A stretch of DNA of 64,000 nucleotides from Methanolobus sp. WCC4 (GTDB taxonomy: Archaea > Halobacteriota > Methanosarcinia > Methanosarcinales > Methanosarcinaceae), in contig NZ_CP150629.1 in assembly GCF_038022665.1 (NCBI RefSeq), positions 2,276,480 through 2,340,479 of the forward strand, given 5' to 3'. Below, in pieces: positions 20,720 through 38,742 of the stretch. Both the position numbers and the translations under genes were made by a program. Every line of letters begins with the position of its first letter. The stretch's first letter is position 1. Under the pieces are notes generated by a model. It saw only the letters and a list, made by a program, of their open reading frames with translations. It was not told the DNA's origin and did no database searches.

Positions 20720-20962
20720 ATTTTCCGCTCCCATATCACTTATAAAGAGTATATTACTCAATAATGATTTAGTCAGCACAATATATATCGATGCAGCAAA
20801 CAAAGTTCAGTATTATCTTTAAGTAAAAATGTTCCTGAAAATGCATTTCAAGTTAAAACAAATATAAAAGGAATACCCTACTTCAAAAAATTTATGGAAA
20901 AAAAGTTTAATTGTTGATGCCAGGTAAAATCAGAACTTATTTTAAGAAAATAAAAGGAGGAA

Positions 20963-23900
20963 TTAATCCCTCCTTCTAAGATAGAATGACCCTACCAGTC
21001 CAAGAGATGATATGAATACCATCATTCCAACAGGACTCAACAGTGGTACTACAGGCTGGCAGTAGTAATTAGCTGCATCCTCATCTGTAACTTCATTGCC
21101 TTCAAACTCGCCTGTAACAACTGCAGTGTTCGTGTGCTGTGGAACACATTCCTGCATGCTATCACTTAGCTCGTATGTCCATACCTCACCCGGATCAAGA
21201 ATATCATCATTGTTGATGCTCTTTGAAATAATACTTGAAGGGGAGATCGTTCCCAGTTTGTCATCAACAACAACTATGTTCTCCAATGGAACATTGCCTG
21301 TGTTTTCCACAACAAAGGTCCAGATGATCCCATCACCCACAGCAAGCAGAATTCCAGGAGCCTGATCAGCATCATTTCCATTGATATATTTCTCAATATC
21401 AATGTCAGGTCCACATTCCACATTGTAATGACTTGGATCTTCATCGGTCACCGGAATGGCACCATAATGACCCACAACATCACCAATATTTTCGTACTGG
21501 CCACATTCAGCGGTTCCGTTTGCCTGATAGACCCAAACCTCACCTGGCATAAGCGTATCATCACCACTTCCCTGATCAGTGATAGTGGTTATGATACCAA
21601 GCTGGTCATCAGTGACGGTCACATTGGTAAGAGGTACATTACCTGTATTCGTGACAACATATTCCCAGATAACATCTGACTTGTAGACAAGTGTTGGTCC
21701 AGGTGCAACATCGGCATTAACGCCATTGGTTGATTTCTCAATATCAATGCGAGGTATACAGACGACATTATAGTGACTTGGGTCCTCATCAGCTACAGTG
21801 ACATCACCATAGTCACCGGTAACAGTACCGATGTTTGCATAGTCACCACATTCGGCTGTGCCGGTAGCTTCAAGGGTCCAGGTCTCACCAACTGCAAGGA
21901 TATCGTCACCATCTCCCTGATCGATGATAGTGGTAACAGTTCCAAGGATGTTGTCACTTACCTGGATATTGCTAAGATCGACGTTACCTGTGTTCTCAAT
22001 GACATAGGTCCACGTAACAGCATCACCACGATCCAGTGTAGGTCCCGGAGCACTATCTGCATCTTCACCGTTAGTGGCTTTCTCGATGTCGATGTCAGGA
22101 CATTCACCGAAGTAATGACTTGGGTCAGCGTCAGTTACAGTGACATCACCATAGTCACCGGTAACGGTACCGAGGTTGGCATACTGGCCACATTCAGCTG
22201 TACCTTCAGCCTCATAGGTCCAGGTCTCAGTAAGGTCAAGGATACCATCAGCATTGGTATCGCCACCCTGGAAGACAGCGATAACGCTCTGGTTATCAGT
22301 AACCACAATATTGCTCAAAGGAACATTACCGGTGTTGGTCACAACATAGGTCCACGTAACAGCATCACCTTCAGGGATACCGGGACCGGGACCAGTATCA
22401 GCATCTTCACCATTGGTAGCCTTCTCAATATCGATATCAGGACATTCACCGAAGTAATGACTCGGATCAACGTCAGTTACAGTTATATCACCATAGTCAC
22501 CGGTAACAGTACCGAGGTTGGCATACTGACCACATTCAGCTGTACCTTCAGCCTCATAGGTCCAGGTCTCAGTAAGATCAAGGATACCATCAGCATTGGT
22601 ATCGCCACCCTGGAAGACAGCGATAACGCCCTGATCATCAGTAACTACAACATTGCTCAGAGGAACATTACCAGTGTTGGTCACAACATAGGTCCAGATA
22701 ACAGCATCACCCTCTGGAATGCCAGGGCCGGGACCAGTATCAGCATCTTCACCGTTAGTTGCTTTCTCTATGTCGATTCCAGAACATTCACCGAAGTAAT
22801 GACTTGGGTCAGCGTCAGTTACAGTGACATCACCATAGTCACCGGTAACGGTACCGAGGTTGGCATACTGACCACATTCAGCTGTACCTTCAGCCTCATA
22901 GGTCCAGGTCTCAGTAAGATCAAGGATACCATCAGCATTGGTATCGCCACCCTGGAAGACAGCGATAACGCTCTGGTTATCAGTAACCACAACATTGCTC
23001 AAAGGAACATTACCTGTGTTTGTCACAACATAGGTCCACGTAGCAGCATCACCCTCGGGAATGCCGGGGCCGGGACCAGTATCAGCATCTTCGCCGTTAG
23101 TGGCTTTCTCAATGTCGATGTCAGGACATTCACCGAAGTAGTGACTTGGATCAGCGTCAGTTACAGTGACATCACCATAGTCACCGGTAACGGTACCGAG
23201 GTTGGCATACTGACCACATTCAGCTGTACCTTCGGCCTCATAGGTCCAGGTCTCAGTAAGATCAAGGATACCATCAGCATTGGTATCGCCACCCTGGAAG
23301 ACAGCGATAACGCTCTGGTTATCAGTAACCACAACATTGCTCAAAGGAACATTACCTGTGTTTGTCACAACATAGGTCCACGTAGCAGCATCACCCTCGG
23401 GAATGCCGGGGCCGGGACCAGTATCAGCATCTTCGCCGTTAGTGGCTTTCTCAATGTCGATGTCAGGACATTCACCGAAGTAGTGACTTGGATCAGCGTC
23501 AGTTACAGTGACATCACCATAGTCACCGGTAACGGTACCGAGGTTGGCATACTGACCACATTCAGCTGTACCTTCGGCCTCATAGGTCCAGGTCTCAGTA
23601 AGATCAAGGATACCATCAGCATTGGTATCGCCACTCTGGAAGACAGCGATAACGCTCTGGTTATCAGTAACCACAACATTGCTCAAAGGAACATTACCTG
23701 TATTGGTTACGACATAGGTCCAGATAACAGCATCACCTTCTGGGATACCGAGACCAGGACCAATATCAGCATCCTCACCATTTGTAGCTTTCTCTATGTC
23801 GATCTCAGGACATTCACCGAAGTAGTGACTTGGGTCCTCATCAGTGACTGTAATGTCACCAGAATCACCGGTAACATTACCCATGTTAGCATACTGGCCA

Positions 23901-25255
23901 CATTCAGCTGTACCTTCGGCCTCATAGGTCCAGGTCTCAGTAAGGTCAAGGATTCCATCAGCATTGGTATCACCACCCTGGAAGACAGCGATAACACCCT
24001 GGTCATCAGTAACTACAACATTGCTCAGAGGAACATTACCGGTGTTGGTCACGACATAGGTCCATGTAACAGCATCTCCCTCTGGAATGCCGGGACCAGG
24101 ACCAACATCAGCATCCTCGCCGTTAGTTGCTTTCTCGATATCGATGTCAGGACATTCACCGAAGTAGTGACTTGGATCAGTATCAAAAACAGGTATAACA
24201 TCAAAGAAGCCAACTGCTGTAGCATTGTTCTCGTACTGACCACATTCTGCAATTCCAGTTGCAATATAGATCCATGTCTCTCCGAGGTCCAGTGTCGAAT
24301 CACCATTTCCATTCGTGATTATGTCAGTAATTGGACCGAGTTTGTCATCTGTGACAGATACGTTCTCCAATGGCACATTACCGGTGTTGGTTACAACATA
24401 GGTCCAAAGTAGTTCATTACCCTGAGGTATTCCTGGACCTGGTGCTTCATCAGCATCCTCACCGTTGGTTGATTTTTCAATATCAATAACAGGGTTTGGT
24501 ATTTCAAAGAATACTGCCGCAATATCTTCGCCTACAATATCAAGGTTTCCGCCGGCACTTGAAGCCACACTGAATCCCTGACCAGGAGTCATATTGAAAT
24601 ACTGAGACAGATTCTGTACTGATATCTCATATACACAACTACTACAGTTATCAGGGCCAGCTGCATTGCTATTTGCTGCAACCACATCATTTTCATCCAG
24701 TCCTGTAAAACCTACTGTGCTAACAGTCCAGTTATTATTTGTGATCACTATCATCAGTGCTTTACCACCCTGGGATATCATGATACTCCATTGTTCCCCG
24801 GGACCGATTCCTGTAATATCTTTTCCAGTAACCGGCCCAAGTATATCACCATTTTCAGTAAGTCCAATTATGTTCCCATCACCATCAAGATCACCTGGAA
24901 GACCATATACAGTGGACATACCATACAGAGTGTCATTGATTATGTCATAATGAGCATATTGTCCTTTAATATCATATCCACTGGGATAAGGACCCTCAGT
25001 ACTTAGATTCTCATTGAAGTTGGTACCTGCATCAGCAGGAAGATCTTCATCATACCAGCTTCCATTCTGGAATACAACCATTTTATCTCCGAAAGGACCA
25101 TTTGGATCATAACTGCTACCATTTACCTGACCAAAGTTCCAGTCTTCACTCCATTCACCCGTACTTCGCTCTCCATCTACACTAATAGCTGCTGCAGTAC
25201 CCGATATCACAAGCATTGCCAGAGCTATCACAAAAATTAAATTATATTTTGTCAT
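20963..25255 (-). CDS. Giant VPxxxP-CTERM surface protein with ten DUF11-like repeats
   Basis: 1430 residues from the ATG at 25255 (GGGTGGGG upstream). Order: signal peptide; an N-terminal domain of ~220 residues, paralogous to that of the 514-aa neighbour; ten repeats each beginning xIDIEK-TNG-DAD; then VPLLSP, a membrane helix and RRRD (archaeosortase B signal). Repeats 2-7 are nearly identical to each other (114 residues each) and repeats 1 and 8-10 are more diverged. The repeat has two conserved cysteines (AECGQY and HYFGEC) that could form a disulfide, and many acidic residues that could bind Ca2+. It is likely an extended stalk on the cell surface, an adhesin or a self-recognition protein. 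The copy number of the 342-bp units is probably variable between strains. Confidence 0.9.
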   Translation of the reverse strand: MTKYNLIFVIALAMLVISGTAAAISVDGERSTGEWSEDWNFGQVNGSSYDPNGPFGDKMVVFQNGSWYDEDLPADAGTNFNENLSTEGPYPSGYDIKGQYAHYDIINDTLYGMSTVYGLPGDLDGDGNIIGLTENGDILGPVTGKDITGIGPGEQWSIMISQGGKALMIVITNNNWTVSTVGFTGLDENDVVAANSNAAGPDNCSSCVYEISVQNLSQYFNMTPGQGFSVASSAGGNLDIVGEDIAAVFFEIPNPVIDIEKSTNGEDADEAPGPGIPQGNELLWTYVVTNTGNVPLENVSVTDDKLGPITDIITNGNGDSTLDLGETWIYIATGIAECGQYENNATAVGFFDVIPVFDTDPSHYFGECPDIDIEKATNGEDADVGPGPGIPEGDAVTWTYVVTNTGNVPLSNVVVTDDQGVIAVFQGGDTNADGILDLTETWTYEAEGTAECGQYANMGNVTGDSGDITVTDEDPSHYFGECPEIDIEKATNGEDADIGPGLGIPEGDAVIWTYVVTNTGNVPLSNVVVTDNQSVIAVFQSGDTNADGILDLTETWTYEAEGTAECGQYANLGTVTGDYGDVTVTDADPSHYFGECPDIDIEKATNGEDADTGPGPGIPEGDAATWTYVVTNTGNVPLSNVVVTDNQSVIAVFQGGDTNADGILDLTETWTYEAEGTAECGQYANLGTVTGDYGDVTVTDADPSHYFGECPDIDIEKATNGEDADTGPGPGIPEGDAATWTYVVTNTGNVPLSNVVVTDNQSVIAVFQGGDTNADGILDLTETWTYEAEGTAECGQYANLGTVTGDYGDVTVTDADPSHYFGECSGIDIEKATNGEDADTGPGPGIPEGDAVIWTYVVTNTGNVPLSNVVVTDDQGVIAVFQGGDTNADGILDLTETWTYEAEGTAECGQYANLGTVTGDYGDITVTDVDPSHYFGECPDIDIEKATNGEDADTGPGPGIPEGDAVTWTYVVTNTGNVPLSNIVVTDNQSVIAVFQGGDTNADGILDLTETWTYEAEGTAECGQYANLGTVTGDYGDVTVTDADPSHYFGECPDIDIEKATNGEDADSAPGPTLDRGDAVTWTYVIENTGNVDLSNIQVSDNILGTVTTIIDQGDGDDILAVGETWTLEATGTAECGDYANIGTVTGDYGDVTVADEDPSHYNVVCIPRIDIEKSTNGVNADVAPGPTLVYKSDVIWEYVVTNTGNVPLTNVTVTDDQLGIITTITDQGSGDDTLMPGEVWVYQANGTAECGQYENIGDVVGHYGAIPVTDEDPSHYNVECGPDIDIEKYINGNDADQAPGILLAVGDGIIWTFVVENTGNVPLENIVVVDDKLGTISPSSIISKSINNDDILDPGEVWTYELSDSMQECVPQHTNTAVVTGEFEGNEVTDEDAANYYCQPVVPLLSPVGMMVFISSLGLVGSFYLRRRD
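22101..24152 (-). repeat. Six tandem 342-bp repeat units inside the giant surface gene
   Basis: The marker CATTCACCGAAGTA recurs at 22101, 22443, 22785, 23127, 23469, 23811 and 24153, a spacing of exactly 342 bp each time (114 codons). Units starting at 23127 and 23469 are almost identical at DNA level. The constant length and high identity indicate recent duplication or ongoing homogenisation by recombination. Confidence 0.97.
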
Positions 25256-25438
25256 TTGCCCCACCCTTATAAGTAAAAGATTTATTTCTATCAGGGAATA
25301 GTTTAACTAGAACCCTATTTAGCAGTGTAGCAAACAAATATCAGTAGGAATCCTCCGCAGCATACTGAAGAAGGATAGTTCCAGAACATAGAGCCGAAAG
25401 AAAAAGTTGCAAATATAAGGGATTTTTAGAAAGGCTTT

Positions 25439-26122
25439 TTAATCTTGATCCTTAACTTTAAGGTCAAGTTTTCCGGATAGTATGTCTTCAATTATTTTAA
25501 GGGACTCATCATCTATCTTTGTTCTTTTACCTTTATCCGTTCTTTCCATGTTATTATAATCAAAGATATTCTTGCATACACCATGACCTTTATCAAGAGG
25601 ATCCTGATCCTTAAGGAATATCATACAGCCTTCAAGGCCAATTTCTTTTTGGATATATTTCAATGCATAACCTACACCATAATGACATCCTACCCCAGGT
25701 AGAAAATAGTTGTAACCTTCCCTCTTTTTCATTTCAAGCCAGGGAAAGAGATTGGAATCACTATCAATTATAAATATCCGGTCTTTCGTGAAGCCTTTAG
25801 CCATTAAAAGGTCAACCAATCTACCAAGGGAACAGGGGACATTACACTTTTTACCTTCCAGTTTCAAACATTTCCTGTTTTTCCTGATCATCACATTATC
25901 AGATACAGGACAAACGTAATTGACGGAGGGTTTTGCACAATAAGGAATAAAAGAGACACAACTATCCAGCTCATCATCAACTATTCTCTGAATATCAAGA
26001 GAAGGTGTGGACAGAGCTACGGCAGAGCAAAGTAAATCCCTGTTCGCCTGGTTGAAACTCAACCTCTTTTCGATCATCCTCCTATTCAGCGAATAGGGAA
26101 CGAATGAATATAATTTTTCCAA
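25439..26122 (-). CDS. DUF116-like cysteine-rich protein (paralogue 1)
   Basis: 227 residues from a TTG at 26122; this start keeps the alignment with the paralogue at 26347-27075 (EKLYSFVPYSLNRRM versus RELIYGLIPYSIHQM). Conserved cysteines lie in YCAKP, CPVSD, CLKLEGKKCNVPCSLG, GVGCHYG, GCMIFL and GVCKN. The core from KCNVPCSLGRLVDLLMAKGF to the GC motif resembles DUF116 proteins of methanogens and bacteria, which may bind metal. It has no signal peptide, so it is cytosolic. It is the second gene of a tandem duplicate and lies in the surface-protein region. Function unknown. Confidence 0.65.
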   Translation of the reverse strand: MEKLYSFVPYSLNRRMIEKRLSFNQANRDLLCSAVALSTPSLDIQRIVDDELDSCVSFIPYCAKPSVNYVCPVSDNVMIRKNRKCLKLEGKKCNVPCSLGRLVDLLMAKGFTKDRIFIIDSDSNLFPWLEMKKREGYNYFLPGVGCHYGVGYALKYIQKEIGLEGCMIFLKDQDPLDKGHGVCKNIFDYNNMERTDKGKRTKIDDESLKIIEDILSGKLDLKVKDQD

Positions 26123-26309
26123 TACCGTTAATTTCGTTAGTTATCCCTTCCCCGAATTTGACCCTTATCAAGTATATGTCACACATCCCCATAAAACTAT
26201 AGACAAATAATGATTCTAAAATCTTGGCATTACAATAAAATAGTGCATACATCAGCTATTTTTGCTGTATAAAGGAAATATACAAATGATGAAACAAAAT
26301 AGAGAGATC

Positions 26310-26334
26310 CAATGGTATTTAGCGAATACCATTG
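26310..26334 (-). terminator. Hairpin after the second DUF116-like gene
   Basis: A perfect 10-bp inverted repeat (CAATGGTATT, loop TAGCG, AATACCATTG) lies about 12 bp beyond the stop of the 26347-27075 gene on its strand. The following sequence is only moderately T-rich, so this is either a terminator or a 3'-end protecting hairpin. Confidence 0.5.
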
Positions 26335-26346
26335 AAAATAACAGGC

Positions 26347-27075
26347 TTATGTGCTTGAAGGAATATCATTCGTATGGGGAGATCTTTGAGGAACATCAAC
26401 CATATCCTGATAATCACCAGATAGTATGCGGTCCATCAGAATGACAGTTTCCTTGTGGATCTTGGTTCTCTTTCCCTTATCCAGGCCTTCCATTCCCAGA
26501 TAATCATTCATGCACTTACAGACACCATTCTCTTTGTCTTCCGGACAAAAGTCATCTACAAATGCTATGCAACCCTTATAGCCAAGCTTCTTGCCAATAT
26601 AGTCGATCGCATAGGATACACCATACTTGCAGCCAGTACCCGGCATGAAATACTCATATCCTTCTTCCCTCTTTTGTTTAAGCCATGGGAAAAGATTGGA
26701 ATCACGGTCTATTATGAATATCTGATCCTTTGTGAAGCCATGTTTCAAAAGAACATCCACCATATCTCCAAGAGAGCAGGGAACCTTACATTTTCCGCCT
26801 GACACCTTGATACAGTTTTGATTTTTGCGATTGTGCTCCTTGTCCGATGTTGGACATTCATGGTCACCCATAGGTTTTGCACAATAAGGTAAAAAAGCAA
26901 CACACTTATCCAGATCATTCCTGACAACTTTGTTAATGTCAAGAGAATGAGGATACAAAGCAAGATGATTTTCTATAATTGTACTATCCTGTCTTTCAAA
27001 ATTACACTTCCATCTCACGATCATTTGATGAATTGAGTAGGGGATCAATCCATATATTAATTCTCGGATTAGCAT
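26347..27075 (-). CDS. DUF116-like cysteine-rich protein (paralogue 2)
   Basis: 242 residues from the ATG at 27075 with GGAGG five bases upstream. It is collinear with the 25439-26122 protein over nearly its full length and keeps every cysteine motif: YCAKP, CPTSDKEHN, CIKVSGGKCKVPCSLG, GTGCKYG, GCIAFV and CKCMN (an extra Cys here). The KCxVPCSLGxxVD core is DUF116-like. The aspartate-rich DRDSNLFPWL and DLDKGKRTKI-type stretches are shared too. The gap between the paralogues holds a hairpin (26310-26334), so they may be expressed separately. A palindrome lies ~120 bp upstream of this gene. Function unknown. Confidence 0.68.
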   Translation of the reverse strand: MLIRELIYGLIPYSIHQMIVRWKCNFERQDSTIIENHLALYPHSLDINKVVRNDLDKCVAFLPYCAKPMGDHECPTSDKEHNRKNQNCIKVSGGKCKVPCSLGDMVDVLLKHGFTKDQIFIIDRDSNLFPWLKQKREEGYEYFMPGTGCKYGVSYAIDYIGKKLGYKGCIAFVDDFCPEDKENGVCKCMNDYLGMEGLDKGKRTKIHKETVILMDRILSGDYQDMVDVPQRSPHTNDIPSST

Positions 27076-27196
27076 TTTTCCTCCATTGACGTTTTGGGTG
27101 TGCTTTCATAGAGCTGCCCTGAGAAAACTACGTACCCATATTGAGATTATAATATATTGGTTATTTGTACATGACTATAAACATCATGACCCTATA

Positions 27197-27212
27197 TACA
27201 TGTATTCATGTA
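27197..27212. promoter_or_regulatory. Palindrome TACATG-N4-CATGTA in the leader region
   Basis: A perfect 6-bp inverted repeat with a 4-base spacer. Several more TGTACA/ACATG half-sites are scattered around it (27165-27300). It lies upstream of the DUF116-like gene (27075) and downstream of a winged-helix regulator gene, so it may be that regulator's operator. Confidence 0.4.
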
Positions 27213-27369
27213 CATGCACATCCATAGATAATATATAGTGTGCACATAGTTATAAATAATTCAGAAAGATACTGTACAAAGTTACTCTATTTTATGTACA
27301 AGTTAATGTAAAATAAAAGGCAAATTAACTTTGAAAGAATAAAAGGGAATATGAATATAGTTAAAATGA

Positions 27370-27639
27370 TCAAAGACCTAATTCTTTTGCAATCTCCTGG
27401 AACTCCTTCCCTTTTGAAGTTGTTACATACAGGTTTCCTTTGCGCTCTATCAAACCTTTTTCTTCTAACATCTCAAGATACCTGTTTACCATGTCAAAGT
27501 TCAAATTTGCACTGTAAACTATATGTGTTTTCTTAGCCCCCTCCAATGCAGCTTTTAATATCTCCACACTAATGGTAGTTCTGCTTCTTCTAATACAACC
27601 ACATCCATTAGTCACAACCCTTATACCTGCACTCCCCAT
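27370..27639 (-). CDS. Winged-helix regulator, paralogue of 18167-18364
   Basis: 89 residues from the ATG at 27639; the conserved part starts around residue 16. It has a helix (VEILKAALEGAKK), a recognition helix (NFDMVNRYLEMLEEKGLIE) and a wing (GNLYVTTSKGKEF), and the last 65 residues match the regulator at 18167-18364 closely. A short CGC sequence near the N-terminus (NGCGCIRRS) could bind metal, and a similar GC-x-x-IRRS is encoded ahead of the other paralogue's GTG. Alternative starts exist at the GTG codons inside. The paralogues bracket the archaeosortase/VPxxxP/DUF116 region, which suggests duplication of a regulator along with its target genes. Confidence 0.78.
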   Translation of the reverse strand: MGSAGIRVVTNGCGCIRRSRTTISVEILKAALEGAKKTHIVYSANLNFDMVNRYLEMLEEKGLIERKGNLYVTTSKGKEFQEIAKELGL

Positions 27640-27702
27640 TCCAGTAAAAGTTGGAAGAAAAAATCAATCCCAACTTTCAGATCTCATCTATTTTTTGAAT
27701 CC

Positions 27703-28353
27703 CTATTTTTTGAATCCATACTTATAGGAAACAACAACAACTCCCACAAGGATAAGACCAAATATTGCGAGCGTACTACTTGCGCCATTTACAGGCGAAG
27801 ATCCTTCTTCAGCAATATCTTCCTCTTCTTCTACCGGACTTTCCAGTATTGTTTCCTCAATTGCAGATGATCCCGAGCTCTCAGCTTCCTCCTCTACAGC
27901 ACTTTCCGTAGTAGAAGCACTACCAAAACCTCCACCACCTCCACCTCCTGAAGAGGTCGATCTGGTTTCTTCTGTTGCTGTTGGCGGAGGAGAAGTTGCA
28001 CTAAGGTCAAGGGAAACCATTTCACCGGTCTGATAATCACTGAGATCTAATGTAGCTGTTTCCACGCCATTTACTTCGACCGTGACAACACTATGATCAG
28101 AACTCACTCCAAGCCTGTTACTTCGTTCATCCCCATAAAGACCTGCAGTTGTTACAGTTGTTGTAGCAACTGTCTGCCCATCATCAACAATCGTCACTTC
28201 TGTTCCTACAGGTGCAGGATTCCCATCCACCAATAAGTTCCCTCCTAATACTATTGGAGGGGCAACGGCTACAGCGGGTGCAGCTACCACTATGAGTGAG
28301 AACAGAATAATCAGTACTTTTAATGAAACACCATATATTTTACCACTTATCAT
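27703..28353 (-). CDS. Exported Ig-like protein with C-terminal membrane anchor
   Basis: 216 residues, ATG at 28353 preceded by GAGGTGG. It has a signal peptide (about 8-31), a small beta domain (about 35-115) that resembles a carboxypeptidase-regulatory/Ig-like fold (LLVDGNPAPVGTEVTIVDDG), then a Gly/Ser-rich linker and a long acidic Glu-rich linker. It ends in a membrane helix and YKYGFKK. No VPxxxP or PGF signal is clear before the anchor. It follows the cohesin gene (gap ~70 bp) in the same direction and may be the third gene of that surface operon. Function unknown. Confidence 0.75.
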   Translation of the reverse strand: MISGKIYGVSLKVLIILFSLIVVAAPAVAVAPPIVLGGNLLVDGNPAPVGTEVTIVDDGQTVATTTVTTAGLYGDERSNRLGVSSDHSVVTVEVNGVETATLDLSDYQTGEMVSLDLSATSPPPTATEETRSTSSGGGGGGGFGSASTTESAVEEEAESSGSSAIEETILESPVEEEEDIAEEGSSPVNGASSTLAIFGLILVGVVVVSYKYGFKK

Positions 28354-28424
28354 ACGTCCACCTCTGATAAATTAAAAAAGCAGTGAGTAAAACCTCACTG
28401 CAAATATTTCATTTGTCTTTCACT

Positions 28425-29906
28425 TCAGCCTAGCAGACACTCCTGGTCCACGAATACATAATATCCTTCATACATATTCATATCAAAGATATCAGTACCT
28501 ATCTGGTTACCATTGATGACTCCTTCCTCTCCATTGTAGCCCACATAAGCGAATTCATTTGTAGAAGCCACCCATGGTCCCTGAACCTTACTGTAGCAGT
28601 CGTCAATAGTAGACAGAGCGACCTCTGCAGGCAGTTCTACCATAGCAGTATGGCCAATCGCATTCCATCCAGGATAGAGCATCAGGGATGGTGGTGTGGA
28701 TGGTACCATTGGTATGAGATAGTCCTCATTGATGACCACTGTCTCGTCCAGGTTGTTGTGTACCCAGTAAGCCTTGAGTGGCTCAAAGTCGGTTGGTACT
28801 ACCATCATGCCTGTAGATGCGTCATCATAGAACACACTGTCAACTACACTGCTGTTGAAGTCCTGAAGCACGTAGTCAATGTTTCCATTCTCAAGTGTCT
28901 CTGGAATTGATATCAGGTTCCAGCCAGGCAGGAGGTCTATTCCTTCCGGCACGGGTATACTGCTTATTTCCACAGAATCATCAATTACATCGACATCTGG
29001 AATTACAGCTCCACCGTTTACAAGTGTGGCATCGTCAAGATCCAGACTATATGTTCCATCTGATGCACCTGCCTTGACCATAAAGTCGATGGTAAGTAGG
29101 GTACCAGCCTGCATGGTAGGTGTTGCATCTCCTGCTGCAAATGAGATCATTCCATCATCTGTGAAGTCTTTGACAACGATCACATCTGATCCTTCAGCTC
29201 CCATAAGTCCACTGTAGCTGGCTCCTGTAACACTAAGTGCACTGGAGTCATATATGAGGCTAAGGTCTACAGCAGAAATTGTGCTGTCCTCAGAGTCCAT
29301 TACTATAGTTGCCTGGAAGGTATCTCCTATTGAGAAAACACCTGCATCAGCTATGACCTGAACAAATGGATCATCTGAAGGAATTACTACATCATCACCA
29401 ATTTCTGCCTGTCCATCGTTGACCACAACACCTGGTATATCAGCTCCACCACTTATCAGTCTTGCATCTTTCAGATCAAGATCATACATTCCATCTGATG
29501 CACCTGCTTTTACAGCAAAGTTTACTGTAACAGCACTTCCTGCTTGTGCAGCAGGAGTTCCATCACCAGCTGAGAATGATATTTCTCCATCATCTGTGAA
29601 GTCCTTGACAACGATCACATCTGATCCTTCAGGACCCATAAGCCCATCGTAGGTAGCACTTGTTACACTAAATGCGCTTGTATCATATGCCATCTTAAAC
29701 GCCATTGCCTCAAGGGATGCTCCATCTGAATCAACATCTACTGTTACTGAGAACGTATCAGTAGGGGCAAGTCCATCAGTGAGTTCTGGATTAATTGATA
29801 ACGATGGTGCTGCTGCTGCAAATCCAATACCCACCATGAAACATGCACAAAATATCAAAAGGGAGATGGATGATGCCACCTTTCCCTTTATTTTTTCATT
29901 TGTCAT
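28425..29906 (-). CDS. Secreted protein with two cohesin-like domains
   Basis: 493 residues from the ATG at 29906 (GAGGTGA upstream); an earlier ATG overlaps the preceding gene. After a signal peptide (ends FAAAAP) come two cohesin-like domains of ~145 residues each. Both carry the pattern DTFSVTVDVDSDG, then YDTSAFSVTSATYDG, GPEGSDVIVVKDFTDDGEISF, and AVKAGASDGMYDLDLKDA. The C-terminal ~170 residues (PGWNLISIP, LKAYWVH, PGWNAIGH) match a domain type frequent in archaeal surface proteins. Cohesins bind dockerins, and the gene directly upstream, 13 bp away, encodes a protein ending in a dockerin; the two are very probably co-expressed partners. No C-terminal anchor is seen, so attachment may depend on the partner. 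Confidence 0.88.
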   Translation of the reverse strand: MTNEKIKGKVASSISLLIFCACFMVGIGFAAAAPSLSINPELTDGLAPTDTFSVTVDVDSDGASLEAMAFKMAYDTSAFSVTSATYDGLMGPEGSDVIVVKDFTDDGEISFSAGDGTPAAQAGSAVTVNFAVKAGASDGMYDLDLKDARLISGGADIPGVVVNDGQAEIGDDVVIPSDDPFVQVIADAGVFSIGDTFQATIVMDSEDSTISAVDLSLIYDSSALSVTGASYSGLMGAEGSDVIVVKDFTDDGMISFAAGDATPTMQAGTLLTIDFMVKAGASDGTYSLDLDDATLVNGGAVIPDVDVIDDSVEISSIPVPEGIDLLPGWNLISIPETLENGNIDYVLQDFNSSVVDSVFYDDASTGMMVVPTDFEPLKAYWVHNNLDETVVINEDYLIPMVPSTPPSLMLYPGWNAIGHTAMVELPAEVALSTIDDCYSKVQGPWVASTNEFAYVGYNGEEGVINGNQIGTDIFDMNMYEGYYVFVDQECLLG

Positions 29907-29919
29907 GATTTCACCTCGG

Positions 29920-32900
29920 TTAGAACTCATATACTCCAGCGAACTGTGCAAGGTCGATGACATCTATAGCTCCATCCTCATTGAAGTCGAAGATAGCATT
30001 ATAGTTACTATCGCCTTCTACACTGTCATATGCCTGAGCAAATGCAGCCAGGTCGAGAATATCGACAACCTCATCACCGTTGCTGTCACCCTTCATCTCA
30101 CTAGTTGGTGGTGCTATTGGTACAGCTCCGCCGTTCATGTAGATTCCAGTTCCATCTGTTGGATCATATGTGAACATCATCCTTGGATAGACTGGCTGGA
30201 TCTCGACATTGTCACATATCACAGTGTTTGGTGCTGTGAATGAACTTGTCAGCAGATAGTCACCGTCTCCGCCTGCATTTGGTACATCCGGATAGACAAA
30301 CTCCTTGTAGAAGTCTGGCATTGTGTAGATGTGTAGCCACTTCCAGGTCTCATATGATTCAACTGGAGTAGTGTCTGCAGAAGTACCAACTATACCACAA
30401 CCCTCCCTGAGTATCTCAAGCAGGTTGGTGTGGAATCTGTCCTCATAGTCCTTGCCTGTGAAGTAGATCTCAGTTGCTGGCACCTCGAACATGCGTTCTG
30501 CGATGGTGTCATATGGTGTGTCGATGTTCATGTCGTGATACCAGAGCAGGTCATCAGTTTCACTTGAATCATACCACTGTCCGTAATAGCAGGTCATAGC
30601 CTCTGCCTCATCGGATAGAGTATGTGGAATGTCGATGTCATCGATCATAATGTGGTCACCATTGAATGGTGGAAGCACAGGAATGATCTCACCGTCATAT
30701 ACAGCCTTCTTGACAACAGAAAGGTCGTTCAGTGAAACATCTGCATGTTCTGGCAGTGGGTTTCTGATAGTAATGTACTTGACATTGTTCTCTTCAGGAC
30801 CATAGATCATGGCAACATCGTATTCAGCACCATCTACAAAGAATGTTTCACTGGTGTGAAGCAGACGTCCGACACGCATCAGTACCTTGCTACTGTCTAC
30901 ACTGGTACCAAGGACCTGCATTGCCCATGGATCATAGAAGTCTGGAGAGTCCATTACCACAGTGTGACGTCCTGCACTAAGGATACCCTGCTCAACATTA
31001 AGGCTGTGCAGTCCACCTATCTGTTCAGGAAGCACATTACCGTTGTAGTATACTTCGACTGCAACTCTGTCGATCTCACCCTCACCATCATAGTAGATAC
31101 CTTCGATCTCTACAATGTGATCAAGGAACTGTATCCTATCACCGACAGCAACTGCGAATATTTCAGAACCAATGGCTACATCCTTCCTTCCATCAGCATT
31201 GAAGTCAGTTGCTCCAAGCAGGTAGGTCATGTCGTCTTCACCATCGTAGTTCATGTCAAAGCTGTCAAGACCTATCTGAGTATCATCCATGTCGGATACC
31301 GGGAACCAGAAGTATGTCCAGAGTCCTGCATCCTGGTCCATGAAGTCCTTGAAGCTGTCAGGGTTACCTTCGGAAGTTGCCATACCTGCGGTTGGCTGGT
31401 AGTGCTTGTCAATGAACATGTATGTGTACTCATTGATCACATCCTCCCAGACATAATGGTTGTGCTTGTCAATATATGTTCCATATACCTCATCAAGCCA
31501 TACCATACCGGTAGGTTCGGTGTATTCAGGAACGAACCACTGTCTGAAGAATACCTTCTCATGGGAATCCTTGTTATCCACTACAATTCCTGCCTTGATC
31601 TTGGCTGGGTTGAGTGTTACAAAGTCCTTCTGTGGAGCTTCAGAGCTCAATGGATCGAATGGTGCTTCAGGATCAGTGTATGGGAATGCGGCACCAATAC
31701 CGTCTTCACCATAGACTCTGAGTCCATTGGTTTCGGTGTCGATCTCATTTACATAGATATCCTCAACTCCTGTCTCCTGGTCATAGACGAACATGAGTCT
31801 CTGTGGCCAGACGAAGTTGTCAACGTCGCAGAGGTATTCATAGAAGTAATCACACTTCTTTGAGTTCTCTGCTCTGAATGAACTTGTGAGCAGGAAGTCA
31901 CCTGTACCATCATCTGCATCAGGCAGCTCTGGGTATACGAATGTCTTGTAGAAATCAGGCATTGTGTGGATGTGTAGCCACTTCCATGCTTCAGTGCCTT
32001 CTATCTTACTAAGGATCGGATCCTCATCAAGAATCTCGAGAAGGTCTGTGTGGAATCTAGGTTCAATGTCCTTGTCTGTGAAGTAGATAAGCAATGGATC
32101 TACATCGTATATCTTACGCTCTTCTACAGTATCGTATGCATCAAGTATACATTCATCCTCATACCATTCTCCATCAGGAGCATCAGAGTTCAAAATTGAA
32201 CCTATATATCCTGTGTACTCACAGCAGTTTTCTGTGTGTGGAATGTTGATGTCATCAACCATTGTGTGCACCTTGTTGAATGGTGGCAGCAATGGGAGAT
32301 ACTCCTCGTTGTCGACCATTTCCTTGACAACTGAGAGGTCATTGAGTGAAACATCAGCGTGCTCTGGAACTGGGTTTCTTATGGTGATGTATTTAACACT
32401 GTTATACTCTGGACCATAGATCCTTGCAACGTCATATTCTGCACCATCTACGAAGAATGTCTCTCTTTCGTAGAGCTGGCGACCTACTGTAAGAAGGATC
32501 TTCTCACTACCTACACTGGTAGCTTCTACCTCAAGGTACCATGGTTCATAGAACTGTGGCTTATCAAGGGTTACAGTATGACGACCTGCACTAAGAATTC
32601 CCTGCTCGACATTGACTACGTGCAGTCCACCTATCTGCTCAGGTTCCTTGTTACCATTGTAGTATACATAGAATGCAACTCTGTCGATCTCGCCTTCACC
32701 ATCGTAGTAGACACCTTCTACCTCTACAATGTGATCAAGGAACTGGACAGACTCACCGACACCTACAGCCATAAGTTCGGAACTTATCTTTATGTCCTTG
32801 TAGCCATCGTAATTAAAGTCCCCTACTTTCTTGAGTATGATCATGTCGTCTTCGTTATCTCCGTCGATATCACAGCCATCAAGACCGATCTGTGCATCGT

Positions 32901-33516
32901 CATTGTCTGCAACCGGGAACCAGAATGTTGTCCAGTAAGCACCTGATGTGCTCATTGCTGTTGCAGCCCTTGGCTCATAGTGCTTGTCAACGAACATGTA
33001 GGTATACTCTGTGACCACATCTTCCCATGTGTACTCGTTGTGATCAGGTTCCCATACAACCTTTTTAATAGGCTTCTGGAACTCATCAAGAGAGATTTCC
33101 CTCAGTTCATCATCGGTTAACAGCTCTGATGCTTCCTCTACAGTTCCGTCATCAAGTGTACGATCAAAACAGCGTCTGAAATCATCGAGCCAGACCATAC
33201 CGGTTGGTTCAACGTACTCAGGTACGAACCACTGTGTTGCAAAGACCTTCTGCTTGGAGTCGATATTATTTACAACAATATCATCCTCCATTAAGGCCGG
33301 ATTGAACGTTACAAAATCTTTTATTGGCGATTCATTGTTCATTGGATCGAACGGAGCTTCCGGATCAGTGTACGGGAATGCCGCACTGAGTCCATCTTCT
33401 CCATAGATACGCAATGAACTTACATTATCTTGAGCACTTGCAATTGCTGCTATTGAAAATATAGTAATGAGAGCAATAGCAACCACTAAAAGCTCGTGCT
33501 GGAACTTCACTTTCAT
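29920..33516 (-). CDS. Large duplicated surface protein with C-terminal dockerin
   Basis: 1198 residues from the ATG at 33516 with GGAGG upstream. It consists of a signal peptide (1-29), two homologous halves of ~550 residues each (both starting LRxYGEDG-AAFPYTDPEAPFDP and containing FVPEYxEPTGMVWLD, GEGEIDRVA, ILSAGRHTV and FFVDGAEYDVA), and a type I dockerin at 1143-1198 with two calcium loops (DSNGDEVVDILDL and DFNEDGAIDVIDL). It is likely a surface-layer or S-layer-associated protein. The dockerin could dock to the cohesin protein encoded next. No C-terminal membrane anchor is present. The repeated halves are diverged, so the duplication is old. Confidence 0.88.
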   Translation of the reverse strand: MKVKFQHELLVVAIALITIFSIAAIASAQDNVSSLRIYGEDGLSAAFPYTDPEAPFDPMNNESPIKDFVTFNPALMEDDIVVNNIDSKQKVFATQWFVPEYVEPTGMVWLDDFRRCFDRTLDDGTVEEASELLTDDELREISLDEFQKPIKKVVWEPDHNEYTWEDVVTEYTYMFVDKHYEPRAATAMSTSGAYWTTFWFPVADNDDAQIGLDGCDIDGDNEDDMIILKKVGDFNYDGYKDIKISSELMAVGVGESVQFLDHIVEVEGVYYDGEGEIDRVAFYVYYNGNKEPEQIGGLHVVNVEQGILSAGRHTVTLDKPQFYEPWYLEVEATSVGSEKILLTVGRQLYERETFFVDGAEYDVARIYGPEYNSVKYITIRNPVPEHADVSLNDLSVVKEMVDNEEYLPLLPPFNKVHTMVDDINIPHTENCCEYTGYIGSILNSDAPDGEWYEDECILDAYDTVEERKIYDVDPLLIYFTDKDIEPRFHTDLLEILDEDPILSKIEGTEAWKWLHIHTMPDFYKTFVYPELPDADDGTGDFLLTSSFRAENSKKCDYFYEYLCDVDNFVWPQRLMFVYDQETGVEDIYVNEIDTETNGLRVYGEDGIGAAFPYTDPEAPFDPLSSEAPQKDFVTLNPAKIKAGIVVDNKDSHEKVFFRQWFVPEYTEPTGMVWLDEVYGTYIDKHNHYVWEDVINEYTYMFIDKHYQPTAGMATSEGNPDSFKDFMDQDAGLWTYFWFPVSDMDDTQIGLDSFDMNYDGEDDMTYLLGATDFNADGRKDVAIGSEIFAVAVGDRIQFLDHIVEIEGIYYDGEGEIDRVAVEVYYNGNVLPEQIGGLHSLNVEQGILSAGRHTVVMDSPDFYDPWAMQVLGTSVDSSKVLMRVGRLLHTSETFFVDGAEYDVAMIYGPEENNVKYITIRNPLPEHADVSLNDLSVVKKAVYDGEIIPVLPPFNGDHIMIDDIDIPHTLSDEAEAMTCYYGQWYDSSETDDLLWYHDMNIDTPYDTIAERMFEVPATEIYFTGKDYEDRFHTNLLEILREGCGIVGTSADTTPVESYETWKWLHIYTMPDFYKEFVYPDVPNAGGDGDYLLTSSFTAPNTVICDNVEIQPVYPRMMFTYDPTDGTGIYMNGGAVPIAPPTSEMKGDSNGDEVVDILDLAAFAQAYDSVEGDSNYNAIFDFNEDGAIDVIDLAQFAGVYEF

Positions 33517-33822
33517 CGTTAGTATCCTCCTTTCTTAAGCCATACGACCTTGATATCACCAAACAAACATGACTCCGTCTCCAATCGTTCAATGATACCC
33601 CAGTGAAGTTGCCCTGGATTAAATCCCACCGACAACCCCAATTATTCATATGAAGCCAGATGTTATAAACCGATAAGAAATAGATTTTCAGAATACTAAT
33701 AGCAAACAAAAGTACGAAACAATTGTAAGAAACAAAGTTACTCATCATTAAATAGATATGGATAAACAATAGCGTCTCAGCTCTTAAAAATGAAAAAGAA
33801 AGGCCATTTCTTTTTTACCAGC
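33517..33822. other. Intergenic leader of the surface operon
   Basis: About 300 bp between the membrane gene at 33823-34221 and the dockerin gene start. AT-rich (for example AATAAATAGATATGG) with probable promoter elements for the leftward dockerin-cohesin operon; no gene or clear structured RNA is seen. Confidence 0.5.
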
Positions 33823-34221
33823 CTAATTCTGTAATTCAATAGCTACTGTATCATATGCGAAAATGATCCACAGAAGGAACGGATAAGCTATCCTTCCAAT
33901 GGCATAAATATAAAGTAATTGCTCCTGATAATAGATAAAAAGCAACTGCAAGTAGACTATCAGCAAATTGAAGGAAATGGTCAGTAAAAGACCAATAAAA
34001 AGAACCTTTATAGTCTTTTTCTTTTCAAAACCAGTCGCAAGTACAAGAGCTACGAAAGGGATGAAATTCAAGGGGAGATAGAATAAAAAAAAATTCGTGA
34101 GATCTACAACAATAACGGAAGCAGCAAAATACCTCCCGCCAATAGGGATCCATACTATGAACAAAATAGTCAGATAAATAAAAAACCTTTTTAAGAAAGG
34201 TATCATTCTTATCGTGTTCAT
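33823..34221 (-). CDS. Small polytopic membrane protein, unknown
   Basis: 132 residues, mostly hydrophobic, with about four membrane helices (around 11-28, 38-62, 70-92 and 104-124). The loops are short and basic on the cytosolic side (FLKRFF, GFEKKKTIK). No motif of an enzyme or transporter was recognised, and it lacks the Cys/Arg/His triad of archaeosortases. It follows the PGF-CTERM-like cohesin gene by 22 bp on the same strand, so it may help that protein's export or processing; this is inference. Confidence 0.68.
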   Translation of the reverse strand: MNTIRMIPFLKRFFIYLTILFIVWIPIGGRYFAASVIVVDLTNFFLFYLPLNFIPFVALVLATGFEKKKTIKVLFIGLLLTISFNLLIVYLQLLFIYYQEQLLYIYAIGRIAYPFLLWIIFAYDTVAIELQN

Positions 34222-34243
34222 AATTATTCCTTCTTATCATCCC

Positions 34244-35746
34244 TCATGAATTACGTTTCTGAAACCTTATTGCCATGTAACATACCATTGATATGGACAG
34301 GAGGAACATAGTAGAATTGAAACCTGGTACTTCCTGTGTCTGGATTCCAGCATCCTCCATTTCTTCCACCACTTCTTCTGAAGTTGATGTCAACGAATCG
34401 GTTTCATCAGGAGTGGCCAATTTGAAAACTACCGGAACATCGGTTATTCCGATATTTGAAGCCTCCCTGTTAATTATTGCATATATCTCATCCATCAATG
34501 GTTCTCTGTCGATATCTGCAGCCTGGTTGATGTTTATCTCAAAGTATCCATCAGGAGACAATCCTGTACTCAGAAGCACGCCACCCTGCAAATAACTGTC
34601 CATCTCATCATTGATGTTAAGTGAGATATCATATGAATCCTGGTAATACCATTGCCAGCATTCTTTTTCAGTCCTGATATCAGGGATATCACCGACTGTA
34701 CCTATAACCATCGGATCGTACAGGGAACTCTGATCATTCGTGAGATTCTCAATACCCTCATTCTCCATTTCCTGCACCCTCATCAGTAATTCCTGAAGAT
34801 CAGCACTTATTGCAGTGGTCGTACCTTCACCAAATTCCACAGGTACGTTCTCTATACCCGCATCCTTTGCTTCTTCATCGATCATTTCATAGATATTCTC
34901 CACCTCTGAACTTTCAACCATGAGAGGTTCATAGAATACGACCACCAGGTATCCTGCAGAATTTGTGCCAAGGGACATGATCTTGCCCTGCCAGAAAAGG
35001 TATTCCCCTTCAAACTCATTCATGATCCTGCTTTCCAATACAAGAATATCCTGAGACCAGTCCTCTCCATTCTGTACCTGCCCACGCCTGCTCAATACTT
35101 TGTAATCATCAGGAATAGAACCAAAAAGGTACGAATACTCAAACTGTGCTTCTGAGGGCAAAGACGATGAACTCAAACTTGACATACTCTCTGAAGACTT
35201 ACCAAAATCGAGAGTATCGGGTTCTGTCATAGCAGCACCTTCCACATCCCCGATTACTATAATACTACCTGTCGCCTTACCACTGAGTTCATCAAGGTCC
35301 GTATCTATAAGTTCGACCTCTGTGAAACGTATACTGTGCATACCATTTTCTACAGTGTCTTTCACCTGGAACTCAATACCTGACATTTGCATGGGTTGTA
35401 ATATAGAGATACCACTTCCAAATGCAAAACCATAGTTAATGGTACCGGCACCATCATCACCACTCCCGGGTTCCAAAAGTATATCTGTATCAAAAATGCT
35501 TCCTTTTGTTATTCCAACTACTTCAAAGACACCGGGATCATAATCAATTTGTACATGTGCCGCCCTTAGCTGCTCACCATCTGAGTCAATAATGATATCT
35601 ACAAAAAAAGTCTCATCAGGAGACAGGCCAATTTGAGATTCTGGCGATATTAAAGCAACTGCCTCTGCCGATACAATTCCAGTGGTCATCAGTAAAATGA
35701 AAACTGTCAGGACTAAGAATTTGAAAGATCCGTAATTACTCCTCAT
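34244..35746 (-). CDS. Cohesin-domain surface protein with PGF-CTERM-like tail
   Basis: 500 residues, ATG at 35746 behind AAGGGGTTG. Signal peptide (ends GIVSAEA), then one cohesin-like domain (about 30-165) with the DETFFVDIIIDSDGEQLRAA and VQIDYDPGVFEVVG pattern, and a long alpha/beta region with two similar segments (around 225-290 and 365-430; VLLSTGLSPDGYFEINI versus KIMSLGTNSAGYLVVVF). The end reads QEVPGFNSTMFLLSISM followed by a basic RFQKRNS, a PGF-CTERM-type sorting signal handled by archaeosortase A rather than ArtB. It is a second potential dockerin receptor, here anchored to the membrane, near the dockerin protein at 29920-33516. Confidence 0.83.
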   Translation of the reverse strand: MRSNYGSFKFLVLTVFILLMTTGIVSAEAVALISPESQIGLSPDETFFVDIIIDSDGEQLRAAHVQIDYDPGVFEVVGITKGSIFDTDILLEPGSGDDGAGTINYGFAFGSGISILQPMQMSGIEFQVKDTVENGMHSIRFTEVELIDTDLDELSGKATGSIIVIGDVEGAAMTEPDTLDFGKSSESMSSLSSSSLPSEAQFEYSYLFGSIPDDYKVLSRRGQVQNGEDWSQDILVLESRIMNEFEGEYLFWQGKIMSLGTNSAGYLVVVFYEPLMVESSEVENIYEMIDEEAKDAGIENVPVEFGEGTTTAISADLQELLMRVQEMENEGIENLTNDQSSLYDPMVIGTVGDIPDIRTEKECWQWYYQDSYDISLNINDEMDSYLQGGVLLSTGLSPDGYFEININQAADIDREPLMDEIYAIINREASNIGITDVPVVFKLATPDETDSLTSTSEEVVEEMEDAGIQTQEVPGFNSTMFLLSISMVCYMAIRFQKRNS

Positions 35747-35899
35747 TATGCAACCCCTTGTAACCCCCGTTACAGTTTTGGCATGAACTCATAGATCATT
35801 CATAGCCAATATCAGATTTTACCTGTGATGATATATAGATTGCTATTTTATTTTTATATCTGCAACACCCGATAATAAAGAAAATAAGAATAATTGTTA

Positions 35900-36802: not shown

Positions 36803-37861
36803 CTATACCTTGATAATCATATCAGCTGCTTTACGAACCCTGTTAAAGACCGCCATCCCTATTCCATCCTGCCTGAAGGAACCATCCACTATTATTATAT
36901 CCATACCTTCCTCATCAAGACGCCTGAGTCCGAAGAAAAGATTCCTTGCTGCCTGTTCAGGCATATCCTTGCGACCAAGCGAATGTGAAATGACCGATGG
37001 AAAAGCTGGAATACTCTCTTCTGTGAGTAACATACCTGCCTTTGCACCCCTCTGCTTAAGATCTGCAAGTATCTCCTTCATCCGGGAAAGGACATTTCCA
37101 TGTTCACCTTCCACAAGGATGACAGTTGAATCAGGAGAATAATGAGTATATTTCATGCCGGGAGAACGGACGGTCTCACTTTCGGGATGGGTTTTATCAT
37201 CATATCCAACCTTCACTTCCCCGATACATGCTTCAAGGTCCTCTTTGCTGACCTTTCCGGGTCTTAATATGACAGGGATGTTCGAAGTAACATCAACCAC
37301 AGTGGATTCAAGTCCTATATCAACTTCCCCACCATCAACGATAGCATCTATCCTTCCGGAAAGATCATGCAGCACATGGTCTGCAGTGGTAGGACTTGGT
37401 CTTCCTGACAGATTGGCACTTGGTGCTGCTACCGGAACCCCCGAGTATTCGATTAGTTCCAGAGCGATCCTGTTCTCAGGCATCCTTATGGCTACCGTGT
37501 CAAGTCCACCTGTAGTCACATCAGGAACTATATCCTTCCTTTCCATTACCAGTGTCAATGGACCTGGCCAGAAACTATCCATGAGAACAGATGCTTTTTC
37601 AGATACGCTTTTTACAAGCTTCAGGCAGCTTTCCTTTGAATGTACATGGACTATCAGAGGATTATCAGCTGGCCTTCCCTTTGCCTCGAATATCTGCATG
37701 ACTGCCCTTTCGTTAAGAGCATCAGCTCCAAGGCCATATACAGTTTCAGTTGGAAAGGCAACAAGACCGCCTTCTTTCAGGATCCTGGATGCTTCCTTTA
37801 TGCGCTCTTCACGAGCTTTGTCATCTACATAAAATACTCTGGTGTCCTTTTTCATGTTCAT
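36803..37861 (-). CDS. sua5: Threonylcarbamoyl-AMP synthase, Sua5 type
   Basis: 352 residues (start at ATG 37861 or the ATG two codons later). The YrdC domain covers ~10-210: ILKEGGLVAFPTETVYGLGADA, KGRPADNPLIVH, PGPLTLVM, AVRMP-type (AIRMPEN), PSANLSGRPSPT and the STVVDVT stretch. The extra C-terminal Sua5 domain (about 230-350, starting PGMKYTHYSP) distinguishes it from short TsaC. It makes threonylcarbamoyl-AMP from threonine, bicarbonate and ATP for the universal t6A37 modification of ANN-reading tRNAs. The next gene downstream is a small membrane protein of unknown role. Confidence 0.95.
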   Translation of the reverse strand: MNMKKDTRVFYVDDKAREERIKEASRILKEGGLVAFPTETVYGLGADALNERAVMQIFEAKGRPADNPLIVHVHSKESCLKLVKSVSEKASVLMDSFWPGPLTLVMERKDIVPDVTTGGLDTVAIRMPENRIALELIEYSGVPVAAPSANLSGRPSPTTADHVLHDLSGRIDAIVDGGEVDIGLESTVVDVTSNIPVILRPGKVSKEDLEACIGEVKVGYDDKTHPESETVRSPGMKYTHYSPDSTVILVEGEHGNVLSRMKEILADLKQRGAKAGMLLTEESIPAFPSVISHSLGRKDMPEQAARNLFFGLRRLDEEGMDIIIVDGSFRQDGIGMAVFNRVRKAADMIIKV

Positions 37862-38112: not shown

Positions 38113-38120
38113 CTTATATA
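38113..38120 (+). promoter_or_regulatory. TATA box for a rightward transcript
   Basis: CTTATATA in an A-rich context, ~25 bp ahead of a GC-rich inverted repeat (38142-38204) in a 500-bp interval without genes. The spacing fits an archaeal promoter with initiation near 38140-38145. Confidence 0.5.
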
Positions 38121-38139
38121 GTATAGTTACCTCTATCAC

Positions 38140-38206
38140 GCCGTGAGCGGGCCTATTTTTTAACCCCACTCCCACACTAACCCCCACTCCCCAGCCCGCT
38201 CACGCA
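38140..38206 (+). ncRNA. Candidate structured small RNA with C-rich loop
   Basis: A perfect 11-bp stem (CGTGAGCGGGC at 38142-38152 and GCCCGCTCACG at 38194-38204) closes a 41-base loop rich in CCCCACTCCC-type runs. The stem is GC-rich in otherwise AT-rich flanking DNA, a good sign of a conserved RNA in a low-GC intergenic region, and a TATA box lies at the expected distance. The C-rich loop could pair with GGAGG/GGGTG ribosome sites. No ORF covers it. The strand is deduced from the TATA position; the stem itself is symmetric. Confidence 0.55.
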
Positions 38207-38326
38207 AAAACAATGGGAAGATGAACAAGGTTAAGGGAAAACTTCTGTTTAAAATAACACGTAAGCAATGCTTTGATTAGTTGCAGCTATTGACAGAGCA
38301 TTGATAAAAGAAAAAAGAGAAAAGGG

Positions 38327-38367: not shown

Positions 38368-38742
38368 TTACTCATCCTCAACCGGCGGCGGACATGCTGC
38401 TTCACATGCCTTGCCATATTCATCGATGACGGACTCCTTACAGAGACCGACACCATGCCTGTGAGCTGCACGGCTTATCATATGAGCCGCCACAGGAGAT
38501 GTGATCAGGATGAAAAGAGCTACAGTAATTGCCTTTACACCCATAGGGGACAAGCCAACTTTGAGCAGGATACTAAGCATTACACTAAATGCACCAAGTG
38601 TTCCGATCTTCGTGGTTGTATGCAGCCTGTTGTAAACATCAGGAAGCCTTGCAAGTCCGAGCATGGCAAGGAACACGAAGAAAAGTCCTAAGATCAGAAC
38701 TGCGTTGCTCAGCAGCTCAAGGATCATTGAAAGAGTGCTCAA
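38368..38742 (-). CDS. mrpG: Mrp Na+/H+ antiporter subunit G
   Basis: 124 residues with three membrane helices and the MnhG/MrpG signature LGLARLPDVYNRLHTTTKIGTLG (key residues RLPDxYxRLHxxTKxxTLG). The soluble C-terminus is longer than usual and acidic, with three cysteines (LCKES, CEAACPP). It is the last gene of the seven-gene mrp operon and overlaps mrpF by 4 bp. MrpG is a small structural part of the membrane antiporter complex. Confidence 0.93.
   Translation of the reverse strand: MSTLSMILELLSNAVLILGLFFVFLAMLGLARLPDVYNRLHTTTKIGTLGAFSVMLSILLKVGLSPMGVKAITVALFILITSPVAAHMISRAAHRHGVGLCKESVIDEYGKACEAACPPPVEDE

Follow-up and report, generated by a model that had tools for sequence, protein, structure and literature searches.

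Within the window, i.e. the whole 64,000-nt stretch of Methanolobus DNA that was analysed, the hairpin of a putative small RNA (sRNA) gene, referred to here as copy A, sits between the genes for Sua5 and MnhG, both of which are on the minus strand (Table 1). The original prediction of a perfect 11-bp stem closing a 41-nt loop, with a TATA box at promoter distance, was borne out by the sequence and by folding of positions 38113-38210, for which an energy of -22.9 kcal/mol was obtained as compared with a mean of -9.9 (sd 2.45) for shuffled sequences (z -5.29). None of 200 shuffles matched the stability of this fold. One stem with a large loop is predicted for copy A, and ACUCCCCA is unpaired in the predicted fold, placing UCCC in the unpaired loop. 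No plus-strand ORF of at least 40 aa overlaps the hairpin. Comparison of the whole window with Rfam 15 gave no matches at the gathering score, and at E values up to 10 the hairpin itself was unmatched, with three chance matches below threshold close by.

Table 1. Features of the copy A locus, its neighbouring genes and a candidate target in the window.
Feature	Position in window	Strand	Basis or remark
sRNA hairpin, copy A	38142-38204	+	transcript predicted to begin at the stem or immediately 5' of it
TATA box TTATATA of the putative sRNA gene	38114-38120	+	sequence; 28 nt 5' of the stem
5' stem arm CGTGAGCGGGC	38142-38152	+	11 bp with the 3' arm; covariation
3' stem arm GCCCGCTCACG	38194-38204	+	pairs with the 5' arm; covariation
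Loop, 41 nt	38153-38193	+	sequence
U-tract (U6), 5' side of the loop	38156-38161	+	candidate Sm/Lsm (SmAP) site
First C-rich repeat AACCCCACTCCC	38162-38173	+	
Loop core CACTAACCCCCACTCCCCA, 19-mer	38175-38193	+	
Sua5/YrdC threonylcarbamoyl-AMP synthase, neighbour	36803-37861	-	PF01300, PF03481
MnhG subunit of Mrp Na+/H+ antiporter, neighbour	38368-38742	-	PF03334
Cohesin-domain surface protein, candidate target	34244-35746	-	PF00963; 2.4 kb away
GGGGGTTA at the cohesin gene translation start	35761-35768	-	complement of loop UAACCCCC

Conservation of the loop in related genomes had been named in the original prediction as one of its checks. With a 301-bp query, the hairpin was recovered from 18/18 other genomes of the same genus, and matches to a covariance model, designated R1, extend across the class. 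Some match to the query was present in 26 of the 30 genomes searched, a set that includes the genome under study, and most of these genomes carry further loci in which the loop is shared, the stem differs and a separate TATA box is present. Three copies are found in this genome: A lies in the window, B at 2436979-2437031, and C, which is divergent, at 2192324-2192403. Copies A (64.3 bits, E 3.7e-10, G000:2314622-2314682, equivalent to window positions 38143-38203) and B (68.1 bits) match R1 by construction, as both are in its alignment. Copy C scored only 18.3 bits (E 4.33), although on visual inspection a stem and loop of its own are evident.

The exact 19-mer CACTAACCCCCACTCCCCA was detected in 97 stretches of a collection of 84,980 species genomes (96 stretches bear archaeal titles), and its holders comprise Methanolobus, Methanomethylovorans, Methanococcoides, Methanoperedens, ANME-2, other Methanosarcinales/Methanosarcinaceae and uncultured archaea. 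One contig labelled Desulfuromonadales (L061) bears a hairpin of the ANME-2 type, and hence is likely to be mis-binned. Model R1 matched 171/185 genomes of the order (116/117 good genomes; 25/27 genera) and 216/237 genomes of the class (146/150 good genomes; 35/39 genera). In a sample of the phylum, 82/392 genomes gave a match, all 82 being within the class, and none of the 309 sampled genomes outside the class (a number obtained by subtraction) was matched by R1.

The number of copies per genome ranges from 1 to 12. The maximum of 12 occurs in two Methanoperedens-like genomes (G085 and G089), Methanolobus genomes have 2-3 copies each as judged by R1, and 3-4 copies were seen in six genomes of a Methanosarcina-like genus, g22, that were viewed closely (E up to 1). 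ANME-2 and Methanoperedens also have copies in tandem. No family member was found with R1 in two genera, g15 (G104-G109, 6/6 genomes) and g17 (G121 and G122, 2/2 genomes), three of these genomes giving no match even at E up to 1. Both genera have small genomes (1.3-1.8 Mb) and lie inside an otherwise positive family. Virus-borne copies were also considered and rejected; the 15-mer AACCCCCACTCCCCA occurs in 27 viral contigs, yet 26 of these are partial model matches only and the sole full-length alignment scored 18.7 bits.

The stem shows compensatory changes. A first alignment (A1, 28 sequences) gave 7 pairs, 6 of them with double changes, despite misaligned 3' arms in the ANME-2 and the divergent copies. 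To obtain the model alignment (A2, 18 sequences), 11 rows of A1 were removed and one was added, and the covariation counts on A2 thus come from an easier subset. In A2, both sides are changed in 7/10 core stem pairs and 97.8% of the cells are paired. The paired cells, the double-changed pairs and the covariation score were each reached by 0/500 shuffles, and the number of pair types was unremarkable (199/500 shuffles). Among 34 matches from diverse genera (27 distinct) in an alignment fitted to R1, double changes were present in 5/10 pairs and 94.1% of the cells were paired. Part of the stem, GAGCGGG, is kept beyond what pairing needs.

The loop core AACCCCCACUCCCC, which follows the U-tract, is nearly fixed and varies less than the stem, and one loop core recurs on differing stems. 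A set of 94 non-redundant hairpins was taken from 125 loci, with the core and a stem score required and loci without these excluded. In all 94 of them, a run of 4-7 U residues lies ahead of the C motif; some class members, e.g. L325-L327, have lost this run. U-tracts are preferred by Sm/Lsm (SmAP) proteins. The C-rich repeat AACCCCACTCCC is carried by most copies of the copy A type in Methanolobus and Methanomethylovorans and is missing from Methanoperedens copies, and the number of C-motif repeats ranges from one to three (three in L014). Some loops in genus g22 are looser arrays of C-tracts with variable A/U spacers. In family f7 the loop core is kept, but U replaces the last A.

A TATA-like motif was found no more than 45 nt upstream in 80/94 hairpins, and in 78/94 it lies 25-36 nt 5' of the stem, a family rule that copy A follows with TTATATA 28 nt before its stem. 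A T5 run occurs within 40 nt 3' of the stem in 26/91 cases versus 16/91 upstream controls, a weak terminator signal. The genes next to copies in relatives were named by reading of translations, except where a profile search is stated. Copy B lies between genes for topoisomerase VI subunit B-like and RFC large subunit-like proteins in L252, L213, L217 and L229, whereas copy A adjoins MnhG in L001 (profile search) and has an MnhF/MnhG-like flank in L211, which is from another genus. In L251 and L226 the neighbour of a copy is a membrane pyrophosphatase gene, and most of the 13 copies in family f7 (L315-L327) adjoin a LarB-like gene, which we take to be involved with the nickel-pincer cofactor. 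Two loci of the Methanoperedens type (L069 and L045) have two copies each, adjoining a riboflavin-synthase-like gene by reading. A palindrome, TCATCATnATnATGATGA, lies directly 5' of the copy B TATA box and is conserved in Methanolobus (L252:2380-2535 and relatives), where it was seen in seven aligned rows that include repeats of one genome. It is likely the operator of a regulator. Given the kept genomic places and the palindrome at copy B, the copies are old and stable, and are probably regulated separately.

An element acting at the DNA level (a repeat, a mobile hairpin, or a G-quadruplex on the other strand) instead of an RNA gene could account for the four G-tracts on the strand opposite copy A and for the tandem copies in ANME-2 and Methanoperedens. 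However, the compensatory stem changes, the fixed TATA distance and the conserved neighbours argue against such an element, as does the finding that Methanoperedens copies have just two G-tracts on the strand facing the loop, and we consider such an element very improbable. An sRNA gene is strongly supported because the stem covaries, the TATA distance is fixed, the copies have separate promoters and conservation spans the class, and this part of the predicted sRNA that masks ribosome sites stands. That these hairpins constitute a real RNA gene family is considered almost certain. The family, with its fold, covariation, promoter motifs and distribution, is established at the level of sequence, and its members are presumably transcribed. 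It seemingly has not been catalogued before; a literature search, for which the subscription literature was mostly out of reach, returned no report of it.

The other part of the prediction, general masking of ribosome sites, fared differently. Against the 50 translation starts in the window, the mean duplex energy of the real loop was -9.8 versus -11.3 for composition-matched shuffled loops, and 39/40 shuffled loops bound these starts as well or better. Loop-complementary k-mers at 1132 starts from three genomes were not significantly over-represented (p 0.06-0.68), and generic masking is not supported by these two tests. Among 8466 7-mers, TGGGGGT has the largest excess at starts (9 versus 1.3), with TATGGGG and others close behind. 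Complements of the full-length loop in this genome are confined to family members, and rRNA and other stable RNAs were rejected as targets, as the loop complement is unmatched there. With up to one mismatch allowed, GGGAGTGGGG is rarer than the control (60 versus 78). The pattern GGAGTGGGG N0-12 ATG occurs 60 times versus 32 in controls over 21 genomes. About 13 of the 60 sites are, by reading, antisense to the sRNA copies themselves, and for the remaining sites no spacer recurred in more than three genomes at a gene likely to be shared. Individual G-rich start sites may still be masked.

One such site is at the start of the cohesin-domain gene (Table 1). The motif GGGGGUUA is a perfect complement of UAACCCCC in the loop, and is close to GGAGGUGA, the canonical ribosome site. 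The cohesin gene start has the best duplex energy of the 50 window starts (-25.3 kcal/mol), a value equalled by 67/200 shuffled loops. In 8/10 cohesin orthologues, GGGGGUUA (exactly GGGGGTTA) is at the start, and the other two have GGGGUUA and GGGGGUUU; the eight include L265, with its site at G010:C4:95010. Among shuffled loops, 44/2000 attain 8 nt with the cohesin leader consensus. A cohesin orthologue is present in only 11/27 genomes of the genus, and hence this target cannot explain the class-wide conservation of the loop. Within the cohesin leader, GUAAC-GGGG-GUUAC is able to fold at the translation start into a short stem capped by a G4 loop (window 35755-35775, L260-L268), and several orthologues have a second inverted repeat in the leader. 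The gene belongs to a surface-protein region (19175-35746) that also includes a dockerin domain (29920-33516) and DUF7507 repeat proteins (19175-20803 and 20963-25264).

Beyond this gene, GGGGGTTA N0-14 ATG occurs 10 times versus 2 in controls in this genome and 110 versus 73 times in 15 genomes, and genes with GGGGGUUA starts recur as orthologues, namely lipoproteins, a 152-aa protein and a 122/124-aa protein. A total of 40 sites with GGGGGTTA starts, partly picked for shared spacers, were examined together with loci L277-L314, and 43 distinct ones give an ORF of at least 60 aa. A signal-like N-terminus is encoded by 16/43 of these genes versus 136/1132 sampled genes (p 3e-5) when orthologues are counted separately, and by about 8/31 when orthologues are collapsed by eye. 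In an unselected sample, it was seen in 1/16 genes with GGGG(G)TTN starts versus 11% overall, which counts against the idea of an envelope regulon. The apparent secretory enrichment among genes with GGGGGUUA starts is regarded as a lead, not as proof.

The main rival to a loop that pairs with mRNA is an RNA that binds a protein recognising C-tracts, i.e. a sponge or scaffold in which the loop would provide the binding sites and the stem would act as a clamp. This would fit a loop core that is nearly fixed across families, yet for which a conserved complementary target set was not found, as well as the variation from one to three repeats, the several C-tracts with variable A/U spacers in Methanosarcina-like copies, and the conservation of GAGCGGG. 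However, a protein partner is not known here, and the contiguous, fixed 14-nt core in most families exceeds what a short C-tract binder would need. We consider this explanation unlikely, though it deserves serious consideration.

The explanation we favour, with a probability of about 0.48, is a trans-acting sRNA, present in several copies, that uses its C-rich loop to pair with G-rich translation starts. It is consistent with the covariation, the class-wide distribution, the fixed TATA distance and the recurrence of one loop core on differing stems, and finds further support in the start motif shared by most cohesin orthologues, the recurring orthologues with GGGGGUUA starts and the signal-like N-termini among them, the excess of GGGGGTTA near ATG, and the published precedent of LhrC. 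The evidence from targets themselves is confined to conserved GGGGGUUA starts, above all that of the cohesin-domain gene. Against it stand the confinement of the full loop complement to the family in this genome and the rarity of GGGAGTGGGG, the worse than shuffled binding to starts on average and the lack of significant k-mer enrichment, the low signal-like fraction in the unselected sample and the limited occurrence of the cohesin orthologue, and the looser C-tract arrays of Methanosarcina-like loops.

According to this pairing model, the hairpins would form an ancient family of small non-coding RNA genes, present in multiple copies and characteristic of the archaeal class that includes Methanolobus, Methanosarcina-like genomes, Methanoperedens and ANME-2. 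Each RNA would be transcribed from its own TATA promoter, beginning at the stem, and a hairpin of 9-17 bp would hold open a loop consisting of the U-tract and then AACCCCCACUCCCC. The U-tract may bind an Sm/Lsm protein, and the loop would serve as the seed that pairs with G-rich start regions such as GGGGGUUA, blocking ribosome entry. Several copies with different promoters could feed one pool. A bolder version, which seems rather unlikely to us, is that a near-universal and hitherto unnoticed sRNA of the class controls proteins, those of the envelope among them, via ribosome sites rewritten from GGAGGUGA to GGGGGUUA, where the ribosome would read the site by G-U wobble and loop UAACCCCC by perfect pairing.

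To our knowledge, the mechanism is known for few archaeal sRNAs. If true, a structured RNA kept in 146/150 good genomes of a class of methanogens and methane oxidisers would represent a major missing piece of gene regulation. The hairpin family, with its loop core and three copies in one genome, offers a defined handle on archaeal sRNA target finding, and its absence from the two small-genome genera g15 and g17 provides a natural test.

Among known systems, sRNA41 of Methanosarcina mazei is an archaeal intergenic sRNA that, in the available part of a review, is described as masking ribosome sites within the polycistronic ACDS mRNA (PMC5867862), and the comparison with the hairpin family is by description only. 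The ACDS mRNA, raised as a target in the original prediction, was not supported. At the six starts of the cdh/cooC region, the best energy for the copy A loop was -18.8 kcal/mol (cdhE), which ranks third against the 50 window starts and is far from an outlier, and the other five ranged from -7.2 to -15.9. It is possible that sRNA41 and the cold-induced sRNAs of Methanolobus psychrophilus R15 are published members of the family. The fuller proposal that Methanosarcina-like copies include sRNA41, and that the family is thus partly known and masks ribosome sites in polycistronic mRNAs, would agree with the review and with the 3-4 copies in Methanosarcina-like genomes; given that the loop shows no clear preference for the ACDS starts of this genome, the proposal is considered improbable. 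For R15, nine highly conserved cold-induced sRNAs with a shared upstream motif are described in the accessible text (PMC5378194); the genus is the same by name, the comparison being by description only, and in contrast the hairpin family has 2-3 copies per Methanolobus genome by R1.

M. mazei sRNA162 similarly masks a ribosome site, as proposed for the hairpin family, but it is set apart by its description, in the part of the report available, as an RNA of 191 nt that has three stem-loops plus a single-stranded linker of variable sequence, as opposed to one stem with a large loop here, and its homologues are reported there only in two other Methanosarcina species (PMC3510493). A protein sponge of the CsrB/RsmZ type, with repeated sites for a known RNA-binding protein, would be comparable if the one to three C-motif repeats were to act as such sites. 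A likeness in mechanism is to Listeria LhrC1-5 and other sRNAs with UCCC motifs (RsaE and others), which, according to the available portion of the source, are multicopy and have C-rich single-stranded UCCC sites repeated in each molecule; in LhrC these sites bind G-rich sequence upstream of the start codon in the mRNA for a surface protein (PMC4132741). The surface-protein target is only a candidate in the present case. The LhrC RNAs are bacterial and present their sites in loops, a single-stranded stretch and a terminator loop, and the resemblance is drawn solely as a mechanistic parallel, with no claim of homology.
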